From contig NZ_BFAX01000003.1 in the NCBI RefSeq assembly GCF_004310395.1, positions 1-64,000 of the forward strand: 64,000 nucleotides of DNA. The letters are read 5' to 3'. The notes beneath the pieces were generated by a model. The model worked only from the letters and a program-made list of their open reading frames with translations, did no database searches and was not told the DNA's origin. A program made the position numbers and the translations under genes. The stretch is from Methanofervidicoccus abyssi. GTDB lineage: Archaea > AGJL01 > Methanococci > Methanococcales > Methanococcaceae. The stretch's first letter is position 1. The number at the start of each line of letters is the position of its first letter. Positions 37,509-44,400 of this stretch are shown here, one piece after another.

Positions 37509-38192
37509 ATGGATATTAAAGAGTTAGGTAAAAAGTTAGAGGAGTTGTTGGGATTGGAGTATCCCGCAGTTGCTGTGAAACTTGCTAAATCTAAGGATGA
37601 AATCCCTGAAAATTATAATGAAATAGAAGAGCAGATAAGACACTGTGAAATGATCCAGATAGCAAGGAAGGAAGGGAAAAAATTCTACGCCACCTTAGAT
37701 AAACATGCATGTAAAGGAGGGGCCTATGCAATGGGAATTCTCCAAAACCCACCAGAACCTTTGGCCACAGGTAAGTTGTATCACAAGTTAGGTAACTTCG
37801 AAACTGAGGAAGCTGCAATAAGAACTGTAGAAGCTATACCTAAGGTTAAGGAAAAGATATATGCTAGTGTGTATTCACCTCTAAGTAATACAGACTTTGA
37901 ACCAGACTCAATACTGGTTATAACTACACCAAAGAAGGGATTAAGGCTGGTACAGGCCTTACTCTACAAAGAAGGTGGACGATTCCAGGGAGACTTTGCA
38001 GGTATTCAATCCCTATGTGCAGATGCAGTGGCTGCTGTAAAGGTAAGAGGAGTTGCAAATGCTACATTGGGATGTAACGGTTCTAGGAAGTATGCCCGAA
38101 TAGAAGATGAGGAGATGATATTTGCATTCCCACCTTCTGATTTAGAGAATATCGTCAAGGCTTTAGAACACTTCAAAGAAGTCTGGGGATAA
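37509..38192 (+). CDS. DUF169 family protein
   Basis: 227 residues. DUF169 signature: GLEYPAVAVKLAKSKDEIP near the N-terminus, CEMIQIARKEGKKFYATLDKHACKGGAYAMG near residues 47-77, and GIQSLCADAVA near 159-169, with conserved cysteines C47, C69, C164 and C184. Function unknown; the cysteines and its neighbours (a thioredoxin-like protein, then a TusA/DsrE fusion) hint at redox or sulfur chemistry. ATG at 37509 follows a textbook CAGGTGATATA site. The leader (37390-37500) includes a near-palindrome, tgtttatagtagtgtataaa. Confidence 0.85.
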   Translation: MDIKELGKKLEELLGLEYPAVAVKLAKSKDEIPENYNEIEEQIRHCEMIQIARKEGKKFYATLDKHACKGGAYAMGILQNPPEPLATGKLYHKLGNFETEEAAIRTVEAIPKVKEKIYASVYSPLSNTDFEPDSILVITTPKKGLRLVQALLYKEGGRFQGDFAGIQSLCADAVAAVKVRGVANATLGCNGSRKYARIEDEEMIFAFPPSDLENIVKALEHFKEVWG

Positions 38193-38215: not shown

Positions 38216-38467
38216 ATGGTAAAAATAATAGTATTCACCTCTCCAATGTGTCCTCACTGTCCTCCTGCAAAGAGGGTTGTTGAAGAAGTAGTTACAGAGA
38301 TGGGTAAAAATATAGAAGTAGAGTATGTAGATGTTATGAAGGAACCTGAAAAAGCTGCAGAGTATGGAATAATGGCAGTACCTACCATAGTAATCGATGG
38401 AGAAGTTGCCTTCGTTGGAGCACCTACAAAGGAAGCATTGAGAGAAAAAATAGCAAAATGTATCTAA
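38216..38467 (+). CDS. thioredoxin/glutaredoxin-like protein (CPHC)
   Basis: 83 residues, the short form found in methanogens. Active site SPMCPHCPPAKR near residues 9-20 has the CXXC pair (C12, C15); cis-Pro in AVPTIVID near residue 59. It reduces disulfides in partner proteins. ATG at 38216 follows GGGGGTAATATT. The DUF169 gene ends 23 bases upstream, so they probably share a transcript. Confidence 0.9.
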   Translation: MVKIIVFTSPMCPHCPPAKRVVEEVVTEMGKNIEVEYVDVMKEPEKAAEYGIMAVPTIVIDGEVAFVGAPTKEALREKIAKCI

Positions 38468-38515: not shown

Positions 38516-38734
38516 ATGAAACTACGGATACTCTGTAAATACAATAATCCAAAAAACATAGATGAAGATAGTCTTATAATAAACTGTGGTATATGTAGAG
38601 GTATGGATTTAAACTCTATTAATATTATATTAGAGGAATACCAAGATGAGATAGAAGAGATAGTTTATCCCGAATGCAATATCTTAAGGAATGTAATTAG
38701 AACAATAAAAAAAATAAATAAAAATAAACGATGA
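38516..38734 (+). CDS. small Cys-containing protein of unknown function
   Basis: 72 residues. It has the motif NCGICRGMDLN near residues 24-34 (a CXXC), an acidic middle (EEYQDEIEEIVYPEC), and a basic C-terminus (RTIKKINKNKR). Four cysteines could bind a metal or act in thiol chemistry. I do not recognise the family. It ends 4 bases before the TusA-DsrE gene, so it is likely cotranscribed with it. ATG at 38516 follows ctgatatct, a weak variant of the usual site. Confidence 0.6.
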   Translation: MKLRILCKYNNPKNIDEDSLIINCGICRGMDLNSINIILEEYQDEIEEIVYPECNILRNVIRTIKKINKNKR

Positions 38735-38738
38735 TACG

Positions 38739-39557
38739 ATGATAAGGGAGATATCTGTCAAGGGCTTAAGAAGTCCCGAAATATTGGTAGCATCCGTACT
38801 CAATAAGATGAAGAAGGGACTGCTAATTGTTGAAACAGAGGGGGAGTATCAGATAAAGGCCATAAAGGATCTTGCAGACAAGATGAACTATAAGATAGAG
38901 GTTGATAACAACGTCGTTAAAATACACGTTGGAGATATCGAGGCTTCACAATCTATAAACGTTGTTGGGGCAACCTGTCCAGGACCTATAATGATGGTAT
39001 CAGATGTACTGGAGAAAATAGATGTTGGAGAAATATTAGAGATAATAGCAGGTAAAAATGCCCTAACCGATCTAACAGAGGGATTGAAAGGGATTGGTCA
39101 TGAGATACTCTCTGTTGAAGAACTTGAAGATGGTAACTACAGAATACTGGTAAAGAAGGGAAAGAAGAAAGAGGAAGAACTCAAATCTGTAAATATAGAT
39201 GAAATATTTATTATCAACACCACAGGTACTGGAAATGCAGAAAGGGCGTACTCTACCTTCATGATGGCAGATATTGCTCTAAGGATGAAGTTGAAACCAA
39301 CTATATTTCTCATGTTAGATGGCGTCAGTTTAGCTCAGAAAGGTGAATGTGATAAGGTAAAACACCCTGCATTTCCCAAGTTAAGTGATCTAGTAAAGGA
39401 GGTTGTAAAGAAAGGTGTTAAAATTTACGTATGTGAGTTAAGTGCACAGTTTAGGGGAATTAGTAGAGAGAACTTAGAGGAAGGTTTCGAAATTGCAGGA
39501 GCACCTACGTTCTTCAACTATCTATCAAAACCCAACGTTAGACCAGTATGGTTATAA
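38739..39557 (+). CDS. TusA-TusA-DsrE fusion protein (sulfur relay)
   Basis: 272 residues in three parts. Residues 1-70 look like a TusA domain whose catalytic Cys is lost (VKGLRSPEILVASVLNKMKK: CPxP replaced by SPE). Residues 74-146 are a canonical TusA domain with the sulfur-carrying Cys in GATCPGPIMMVSDVLEKI. Residues about 152-272 are DsrE/F-like (IINTTGTGNAERAYSTFMMA, later IYVCELSAQFRGI with a candidate Cys). TusA and DsrE proteins pass sulfane sulfur as persulfide. Methanococci lack the classical cysteine desulfurase route, so the donor is unclear. ATG at 38739; downstream gene after about 20 bases. Confidence 0.8.
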   Translation: MIREISVKGLRSPEILVASVLNKMKKGLLIVETEGEYQIKAIKDLADKMNYKIEVDNNVVKIHVGDIEASQSINVVGATCPGPIMMVSDVLEKIDVGEILEIIAGKNALTDLTEGLKGIGHEILSVEELEDGNYRILVKKGKKKEEELKSVNIDEIFIINTTGTGNAERAYSTFMMADIALRMKLKPTIFLMLDGVSLAQKGECDKVKHPAFPKLSDLVKEVVKKGVKIYVCELSAQFRGISRENLEEGFEIAGAPTFFNYLSKPNVRPVWL

Positions 39558-39578
39558 AATAACTTCGATGTGTTTATC

Positions 39579-39989
39579 ATGAAAAAAATAGACCCTATAT
39601 TCGTATCGGCCCTTTACTATGGGATAAATAAAGCCATAGTAAATATTATTGGTACAGGAGGTCAGGTTCTTGGAAGGGAAGCTTCAAGGAAAATGCTTGA
39701 GTTACTAAAGGAAGAGGATATAATAAAGGAAAACATGAAAGATGAAGATATAAAAGATACCTTCGTAAATATATTTGGTTTATCAGAAGACTTAAAAATT
39801 GAAAATAATAATGACGAAGTTATATTTCATGTTGTAAGACCTACTCTCTCTTTATTTTTGGAGAGGATAGCAAAAGAAAAAATACCCCTCTATATTTGTC
39901 CATTTATGTATTTACTTTCGGAAATATATTCCTATAACAAGGGATACAATTTGATGTTTAAAAATGTTCTACCCGAGGGGATACGGTAA
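39579..39989 (+). CDS. conserved-looking protein of unknown function
   Basis: 136 residues. It starts MKKIDPIFVSALYYGINKAI; the middle has GTGGQVLGREASRKMLELL, and the C-terminus LYICPFMYLLSEIYSYNKGY. Mixed alpha/beta with one Cys (in YICPF). The stretch VNIIGTGGQVLGREAS resembles V4R- or heme-NO-type ligand domains, but this is weak. The link to the TusA-DsrE gene, 21 bases upstream, suggests a related role. I prefer the ATG at 39579; the GTG at 39570 is in frame but adds only three residues. Confidence 0.6.
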   Translation: MKKIDPIFVSALYYGINKAIVNIIGTGGQVLGREASRKMLELLKEEDIIKENMKDEDIKDTFVNIFGLSEDLKIENNNDEVIFHVVRPTLSLFLERIAKEKIPLYICPFMYLLSEIYSYNKGYNLMFKNVLPEGIR

Positions 39990-40028
39990 AATTAATATTT
40001 AAAAAAGTAAAAAAATAAGGTGATTTAA

Positions 40029-40361
40029 TTGAACACTATAATATCTTTAATATCCTTAGCAGTGATATTTGGAAGCATGTTCTCGGGATTTGCTACCTTT
40101 AGGTTAACAGGAATGAGACTCATGTATCATTTTGTATCTTTAATACTTGCTTTTATATTTACTTTGCTTTCTTTGATAGTCTCCAACAGTATAATATTTT
40201 ATATTGCAGTACTTTTACAGATACTCACTCCATTTACTATATGTGGTACAATCTGTAATATCTTAAAAACACAGTTCCAAAATACTGGGATATACTCTGC
40301 TCACCTAGGTTTTATGGGAATATTACTCATTTTAGCACTGGGTAATTTATTAATTTCCTAA
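40029..40361 (+). CDS. small membrane protein of unknown function
   Basis: 110 residues with about four hydrophobic segments (ISLISLAVIFGSMFSGFATF; LILAFIFTLLSLIVS; IFYIAVLLQILTPFTICGTI; GFMGILLILALGNLLIS). Two cysteines in ICGTICN lie at the end of a helix. The start is TTG at 40029, preceded by AAGGTG six bases upstream. It ends the cluster that begins at 37509, so an envelope partner in sulfur transport is conceivable but unproven. Confidence 0.65.
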   Translation: MNTIISLISLAVIFGSMFSGFATFRLTGMRLMYHFVSLILAFIFTLLSLIVSNSIIFYIAVLLQILTPFTICGTICNILKTQFQNTGIYSAHLGFMGILLILALGNLLIS

Positions 40362-43260: not shown

Positions 43261-44400
43261 ATGGAAATAAACTTGGACAAGTATAGAAACCTCAGTAGAC
43301 ACCTTGGAAGAGAATATATAAATTTAAACCCTATACAGAGGGGAGGGATTCTCCCTGTGGAAGCTAAGAAGGTAATTTATGAATACTGGGATGGTTACAG
43401 TGTATGTGACTACTGTGGAGGACGTTTAGACGAAATAAGGACTCCTCCAATATACGAGTTCCTAGAGGATGTTTCTAAGTTCTTAGATATGGATATATCT
43501 AGGCCCACCCATGGAGCTAGAGAGAGTAAGTTTATAGTTATGCACTCTATATGTAAAGAAGGGGACTATGTAATATTGGATGAAAACGCTCACTACACTT
43601 CTTATGTGGCTATAGAGAGGGCGAGGTTGAACTACGTCACAGTGAAGAACGATGGATATCCTACCTATCAGATAGAGCCTGAAAGGTATAAGGAGGCTAT
43701 AGATAGGTTGGAGGATGAAGGAAAGAGTATAGGTTTAATACTACTTACCCATGTAGACGGATCCTATGGCAATCTAAGTGATGCCGAGAAGGTTGGAAAG
43801 ATAGCCAAGAAAAGGAGGTATCCATTTCTCCTAAACTGTGCTTATACAGTTGGGAGGATGCCGGTCAAGGGGAAAAAGTTAAAGGCGGATTTTCTAGCCT
43901 GTTCGGGACATAAGAGTATGGCAGCATCTGGTCCAATAGGTATTCTCTCCATAAGGGAGGAGTTTGCAGAGGAGGTACTAAGAAGGTCTAAGAACCATCC
44001 TAAGAAAGAAGTAGAACTCCTAGGATGTACAAGTAGAGGGGTACCTCTCCTCTCCCTTATAGCAAGTTTTCCATACGTTGTTGAGAGGGTTAAGAAGTGG
44101 GAAGAAGAATTAAAGAAAACCAGATATGTGGTAGATAGGTTGGAGGAGATAGGCTTTAAACAGTTAGGTATGAAACCGAAGGAGCATGATCTCATTAAAT
44201 TTGAGACACCTGTACTTGAGGAGATGTCTAAGAGAAATAAGAGGAGAGGTTTCTTCTTTTACGAGGAGTTGAAGAAGAGAGGTATTGGAGGCATAGTGCC
44301 AGGGGTTACAAAGGAGATAAAGATAAGTGTTTATGGGTTAACCTGGGAACAGGTGGAGTACGTAGTCGATACTATTATAGAGATAGTGGAGAAGTGTTAA
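43261..44400 (+). CDS. pscS: O-phospho-L-seryl-tRNA:Cys-tRNA synthase
   Basis: 379 residues. SepCysS converts phosphoseryl-tRNA(Cys) to Cys-tRNA(Cys), the methanococcal route to cysteine. It is a PLP fold-type I enzyme: the PLP Lys is K218 in CSGHKSMAA, and the essential cysteines C49 and C52 (CDYC) and C256 (LGCTSRG) are all present. Other blocks are NLNPIQRGGILP near residue 21 and RPTHGARESKF near 82. ATG at 43261 follows AAGGTGATCC. Its stop TAA overlaps the ATG of aroE by one base, so the two genes are translationally linked. SepRS and SepCysE are not in the window. Confidence 0.96.
   Translation: MEINLDKYRNLSRHLGREYINLNPIQRGGILPVEAKKVIYEYWDGYSVCDYCGGRLDEIRTPPIYEFLEDVSKFLDMDISRPTHGARESKFIVMHSICKEGDYVILDENAHYTSYVAIERARLNYVTVKNDGYPTYQIEPERYKEAIDRLEDEGKSIGLILLTHVDGSYGNLSDAEKVGKIAKKRRYPFLLNCAYTVGRMPVKGKKLKADFLACSGHKSMAASGPIGILSIREEFAEEVLRRSKNHPKKEVELLGCTSRGVPLLSLIASFPYVVERVKKWEEELKKTRYVVDRLEEIGFKQLGMKPKEHDLIKFETPVLEEMSKRNKRRGFFFYEELKKRGIGGIVPGVTKEIKISVYGLTWEQVEYVVDTIIEIVEKC

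Follow-up and report, generated by a model that had tools for sequence, protein, structure and literature searches.

The window, by which we mean the whole stretch of 64,000 nucleotides analysed here, contains six open reading frames between positions 37509 and 40361, all in one direction and tightly spaced with small gaps. The ORF reading shows all six to be real, including the DUF169 and thioredoxin genes that the original prediction had placed in front of a cluster spanning 38516-40361. The features are as follows:

37509..38192, + strand: DUF169 protein (PF02596; Pfam E=3.5e-68, 230 bits)
38216..38467, + strand: thioredoxin of the MJ0307 family with a CPHC motif (TIGR00411, 122.7 bits, cut-off 92.75)
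38516..38734, + strand: 72-residue CXXC protein, a lineage-restricted accessory (alignment, four conserved Cys)
38739..39557, + strand: TTD, 272 residues, TusA-fold pseudo-domain plus TusA plus DsrE (Pfam, alignment, AlphaFold2, Foldseek, hhalign)
38739..38936, + strand: TTD domain 1, predicted TusA fold without the CPxP Cys (RSPE; S12 codon 38772-38774; hhalign, AlphaFold2)
38940..39161, + strand: TTD domain 2, TusA with CPGP (Cys80 codon 38976-38978; Pfam TusA, Foldseek)
39186..39554, + strand: TTD domain 3, DsrE (Cys232 codon 39432-39434; Pfam DsrE)
39579..39989, + strand: 136-residue protein of unassigned family, a patchy accessory (no Pfam, NCBIfam or PDB relative)
40029..40361, + strand: DUF5400 (PF17379), four-helix membrane protein with a TTG start (Pfam E=7.6e-40)

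A scan with bacterial promoter and terminator models, which are unsuited to archaea, gave no more matches than were obtained in shuffles. Some 3 kb downstream of the cluster (43261-44400) lies a gene for SepCysS (TIGR02539, 624.9 bits), an enzyme that needs sulfur for making Cys-tRNA. A link between this gene and the cluster was considered and rejected, since no SepCysS match was found in any 15-kb neighbour locus of related genomes.

TTD is the name that we give here to the 272-residue three-domain fusion. Its second domain (residues 68-141) belongs to the TusA family (PF01206), with a Pfam match over residues 72-140 (E=3.5e-17, 62.5 bits against a cut-off of 28.6), a CPGP motif and an invariant Cys80; with the TusA equivalog model NF001423, TTD reaches 38.6 bits where 78 are needed, and thus falls outside that equivalog. 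The third domain (residues 150-272) is a DsrE domain (PF02635; residues 156-263, E=1.2e-19, 71.1 bits against 22.7) and carries the DsrE-type cysteine, Cys232. The first domain (residues 1-66) reads ..VKGLRSPEILV.. at the site where TusA proteins have ..GLxCPxP.., and none of 23 orthologs has a cysteine there. It is related to domain 2 in a profile-to-profile comparison (hhalign E=3.7e-5, probability 71%), and an AlphaFold2 model gives it a beta-alpha-beta-alpha-beta-beta order, like a true TusA domain. Domain 2 shows this arrangement of secondary structure in the model as well, so that domain 1 is rightly called a TusA domain without its Cys. Selenocysteine at this position was considered and dropped, since the orthologs have neither an in-frame TGA nor a Cys at the site. 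The architecture claimed in the original prediction, a Cys-less TusA, a CPGP TusA and a DsrE domain in one protein, is thereby confirmed by Pfam, hhalign, AlphaFold2 and 19 orthologs.

Orthologs of TTD are 66-92% identical across Methanococcales, those of Methanothermococcus being 85-92% identical to the window protein, which sets the window within or beside that genus, and the alignment of the 19 Methanococcales orthologs has a mean column identity of 82%, so that the fusion is not a matter of chance. C80, C204 and C232 are all invariant in these 19 sequences. Once the Methanothermobacter-type orthologs are added (23 orthologs, two phyla), Cys80 and Cys232 are the sole cysteines kept; Cys204, which is an alanine outside Methanococcales, was rejected as a catalytic residue. 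A counterpart of Cys232 is kept also in the separate DsrE proteins of Asgard archaea, and Cys232 aligns with the cysteine of 3mc3, 3pnx, 2qs7 and YchN (1jx7). A Foldseek search with the TTD model (mean pLDDT 85; pTM 0.49, for which reason the placement of the domains is not reliable) retrieved the DsrE proteins 3mc3, 3pnx, YchN, DsrEFH and TusBCD, the E. coli TusA structure 3lvj and, from 8k1r, the YeeD part. In a tree built from DsrE domains, the sequences linked to DUF5400 stay separate from the remaining DsrE proteins of their genomes; branch support is moderate (80-89), and the tree is given no weight here. A profile of the linked DsrE domains gives scores of at least 176 to them and at most 53 to other DsrE proteins, the profile having been built from the linked sequences themselves.

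The membrane protein DUF5400 has about 110 residues, and its model (pLDDT 86, pTM 0.77) is filled by the four long predicted helices. It belongs to PF17379, with 135.7 bits for the window protein, 122-149 for the Methanothermobacter-type proteins, and 28.9 and 23.0 for two from Asgard archaea (cut-off 25). The methanogen and Asgard proteins are homologous (Pfam E=1.6e-6; hhalign E=2.1e-9). No solved relative emerged, either by sequence search or from a Foldseek comparison with the PDB, whose best E of 0.96 is not significant. The family is invariant at S19, G20, F21, R25, G28, L38, Q84 and H92. Loops 1-2 and 3-4 have net charges of +2.05 and +0.79, compared with about -0.3 for the outside, which by the positive-inside rule puts both conserved loops in the cytoplasm and thus S19-G20-F21, R25, G28, Q84 and H92 at the cytoplasm or its membrane edge. 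No cysteine position is common to the whole family, Cys72 and Cys76 being confined to Methanococcales; a cysteine relay through the membrane helices was rejected on these grounds. Also rejected was the idea that DUF5400 is half a YedE, similar to PmpA or PmpB: DUF5400 proteins from three phyla gave no match to PF04143 (YeeE/YedE) at E<=1, and hhalign against both halves of the Methanococcales YedE gave E=0.23 and 0.29 at probabilities below 0.3%, whereas the halves of YedE, serving as positive control, recovered each other at 3.5e-6; the Foldseek result agrees. DUF5400 thus lacks both the homology and the conserved transport cysteine of the YeeE/YedE family, the short PmpA/PmpB forms included.

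TTD and DUF5400 are kept together to a degree that sets them apart from most of their neighbours. Among 36 Methanococcales genomes, TTD occurs in 26 and DUF5400 in 24, all 24 having both. The two genomes with TTD only (G002 and G032) have it at a contig end, and in a further genome (G022) the two genes lie on separate contigs, with TTD close to the contig end. They are neighbours in 23 of 23 testable genomes, separated by at most one or two copies of the 136-residue gene. Both are absent from several genomes that are at least 90% complete, including G003, G008, G010, G017, G018, G020 and G021. The two genes are lost together in Methanococcales. In G018 (L044 7224-7954) a stop-riddled remnant of TTD is found beside intact thioredoxin and DUF169 genes, with DUF5400 gone, which speaks for a recent loss of the pair.

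The pair is not confined to this order, contrary to the original prediction of a system peculiar to Methanococci. In a second methanogen phylum (Methanothermobacter type, 152 genomes), the identical nine genomes hold both TTD and DUF5400, and all nine loci have the order DUF169-TTD-DUF5400, the genes mostly abutting or overlapping by a few bases. A tenth DUF5400 match in this phylum (G490) contains a stop and has no partner, and was discarded. Among 227 Asgard genomes, DUF5400 was found in 29; in the Thorarchaeota-like loci that were fetched (20 of 20), TusA, DUF5400 and DsrE are separate neighbouring genes, with a divergent TusA gene before DUF5400 and a DsrE gene after it. Matches in three further archaeal phyla (23, 115 and 398 genomes) came down to two weak ones with stops (E about 3e-4), which we regard as spurious. 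Bacterial genomes were covered by a patterned search for TTD, and the Asgard and other archaeal genomes were sampled. That the same three parts occur in three arrangements, one of them a fusion, is strong evidence for a common function. Near one of the Asgard TusA/DUF5400/DsrE loci (G226, L118 9964-13999) we also noticed several consecutive ORFs that look like heterodisulfide reductase and a fragmentary DsrE.

The other genes of the cluster follow this pattern only in part. The gene order expected across Methanococcales holds for TTD and DUF5400, but the 72- and 136-residue genes are not constant, and the unity of the cluster stands for DUF5400, which is always there, and for DUF169, which accompanies TTD in two phyla, but not for the thioredoxin, which adjoins TTD in Methanococcaceae only. 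The conserved unit is therefore TTD plus DUF5400, with DUF169, and not the whole of 38516-40361. The 72-residue protein, with conserved C7, C24xxC27 and C54, is limited to loci of two genera (g1 and g4), and the 136-residue protein is found near TTD in only seven genomes, where it is sometimes duplicated or lies beyond DUF5400; neither has a relative in Pfam, NCBIfam or the PDB. In one genome (G026, L047 7787-8841) the gene for the latter is a tandem duplicate between TTD and DUF5400, and in locus L041 it lies downstream of DUF5400. A single comparison linked the 136-residue protein to one from Freyarchaeota (L058) at E=0.003, which was too weak to be accepted.

The thioredoxin gene adjoins TTD in all Methanococcaceae loci examined, and not in those of Methanocaldococcaceae or the Methanothermobacter type; it is likely the reductant for the relay considered below. 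In two Methanocaldococcus loci (L039 5997-6837, L047 5880-6723), divergent ORFs upstream of TTD look, by eye, like a membrane protein of the CcdA type and a lipoprotein similar to thioredoxin, a possible electron source. DUF169 adjoins TTD both in Methanococcaceae and in Methanothermobacter-type genomes; the latter have two to five DUF169 matches, of which one belongs specifically to the TTD operon. In Methanococcales it is near-universal and nearly always single-copy, also in genomes without TTD, whereas of five Asgard genomes inspected, four gave no DUF169 match. The TTD-linked DUF169 proteins of both phyla share four invariant cysteines (C46, C68, C170 and C189), a pattern that suggests an Fe-S site. 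DUF169 is a candidate for the role of Fe-S partner or of sulfur acceptor in the relay. In the literature, STRING links DUF169 to YedE (PMC5322559), and DUF169 occurs in some SepRS clusters (PMC8762117).

Several known systems resemble this set of parts. The closest one to have been worked out is thiosulfate uptake by TsuA-TsuB (YeeE-YeeD), in which the transporter YeeE cannot do without its cytoplasmic partner, the TusA-like YeeD, which binds the membrane protein and takes up the sulfur on its cysteine (PMC11073785). Here, too, a membrane protein is paired with an obligate cytoplasmic TusA-type partner with one reactive CPxP cysteine, and the TusA domain of TTD matches the YeeD part of 8k1r/8j4c; unlike YeeD, however, it is fused to DsrE and to a Cys-less TusA, and unlike YeeE, DUF5400 has neither detectable similarity to that family nor a conserved cysteine. 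The nearest in gene arrangement, the YTD clusters of sulfur disproportionators and cable bacteria, join a YedE-type protein with TusA and DsrE (PMC8780430, PMC13293266) in adjacent genes, and the Asgard loci come closest to this layout. TusA and DsrE are present in our loci as well, but DUF5400 takes the place of YedE as the membrane component, and in the methanogens TusA and DsrE are one polypeptide, which places the loci outside the YTD group. YedF (TIGR03527) likewise has a TusA followed by a DsrE-like domain, whereas TTD has an additional N-terminal TusA-fold domain and a distribution independent of SelD. The proteins of the TusBCD/DsrEFH and DsrE2/DsrE3 type share the DsrE fold and a conserved cysteine that aligns with Cys232, but TTD reaches 16.4 with the TusD model, whose cut-off is 89.25, and is fused to TusA and tied to a membrane protein.

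From the order and co-occurrence of the genes, the identity of the domains, the two invariant cysteines and the predicted membrane topology we propose, with about even confidence, that TTD and DUF5400 form a membrane-docked relay for sulfane sulfur; the complex between them, the persulfide chemistry, the order of transfer, the inward direction, the substrate and the acceptor are what we infer. By analogy, the relay would most likely work like TsuA-TsuB or the YTD clusters, though its membrane protein is unrelated to theirs. DUF5400 would recruit TTD, pass reduced sulfur species across the membrane, or both; the sulfur would be taken up as a persulfide on Cys232 of the DsrE domain, handed to Cys80 of TusA and from there passed to an acceptor in the cytoplasm, which might be DUF169 or one of its clients, with the reducing power in Methanococcaceae coming from thioredoxin, while the Cys-less TusA domain would probably be a docking or dimerisation module. 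The pairing with DUF5400 is constant and is found again in two further archaeal phyla, which makes it probable that we are dealing with a hitherto undescribed means of moving sulfur at the cell membrane. It weighs against the relay that DUF5400 has no family-wide cysteine such as YeeE has, and that there is no fixed acceptor, given the distribution of DUF169 in Methanococcales without TTD and in Asgard archaea. With its roughly 110 residues, DUF5400 may also serve for docking or regulation and not as a pore. Tentatively, and with some doubt, we put forward that DUF5400 represents a novel, minimal transporter family of the membrane that has no relation to YeeE/YedE and carries sulfane sulfur or a reduced sulfur anion; together with its TusA-DsrE partner it would be an ancient archaeal sulfur-uptake route common to methanogens and Asgard archaea.

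The small size of DUF5400 and its lack of a conserved cysteine would also suit a mere anchor, with TTD serving as an assembly factor that brings sulfur to one particular client, for instance a heterodisulfide reductase, an Fe-S protein, or a tRNA or cofactor that is thiolated. Genes resembling heterodisulfide reductase do occur near the Asgard locus L118, but this is one of seven wider loci read, and there is no client gene that neighbours TTD in lineage after lineage; we consider this unlikely. The same parts might instead run outward, clearing excess sulfane sulfur or polysulfide. Gene content would be identical under either direction of flow, the system is dispensable according to the genome survey, and in Desulfovibrio G20 a DUF169 gene stands beside a TauE/SafE-type exporter (PMC4001038). 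Yet no sequence feature favours export, and the known systems of TusA, DsrE and a membrane protein have been discussed as import (PMC11073785, PMC13293266), so that we hold export to be rather improbable.

The original prediction went further and saw in the locus a possible sulfur-relay or uptake system of Methanococci's own, standing in for the cysteine desulfurase chain. The first part agrees with the domain content, with the cysteines that never vary and with the conserved membrane partner, but the restriction to Methanococci does not hold. As for the second, sulfur-carrier domains are indeed found here in organisms that are said to lack the usual chain, and TTD could on that account be the principal way by which sulfide reaches Fe-S clusters and thiolation. 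However, the near-complete genomes listed above do without it, one of them retaining no more than a decayed copy, and a chain that Methanococci need cannot be replaced by a system that several genomes at least 90% complete lack; the occurrence of TTD outside Methanococci points the same way, and we regard this role as very improbable. A selenium system, with TTD as a YedF-like carrier and DUF5400 as the transporter, is just as hard to credit. TTD does match the YedF model TIGR03527, but weakly (34.4 bits against a cut-off of 110), and in M. maripaludis a tusA-tusD pair of ambiguous gene identity goes up about 4.5 log2 on selenium depletion (PMC11097638). SelD is above its cut-off in Methanococcales both with and without TTD, being present without it in eight genomes (the seven named above and G034), and is below cut-off in all nine Methanothermobacter-type genomes with TTD; TTD thus differs from YedF both in score and in co-occurrence with SelD. 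This distribution, together with a separate YedE pair in the window genome, makes a role in selenium unlikely.

To our knowledge, little is understood of how sulfur is imported and handed over in methanogens and Asgard archaea, and our literature search found no experimental work on these proteins (DUF5400, and the presumed locus names MJ0758-0760 and MTH1412-1414). The membrane-docked relay offers a defined target, namely a soluble three-domain protein with two conserved cysteines and a small membrane protein, kept together in three archaeal phyla, and it gives DUF5400 a pathway context and DUF169 a link. It also suggests that the plan of a membrane protein plus TusA plus DsrE arose on two or more occasions, from membrane proteins that are not related to one another.

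Other genes of selenium and sulfur metabolism were noted in passing. The 32 Methanococcales SelD genes that score above cut-off and cover the start of the model have one in-frame TGA each, as is expected of a selenoprotein SelD. The YedE pair of the window genome (L123, G000:C3:198400-200200) is split, gives partial matches to TIGR04112 and is followed by a gene labelled by eye as DUF3343-like; together they are likely a separate selenium import cluster. The same genome has a second, separate pair of TusA and DsrE genes (L048 5121-5699, G000:C4), widespread in Methanococcales, which is possibly the TusAD pair that is reported to be induced in M. maripaludis when selenium is depleted (PMC11097638).
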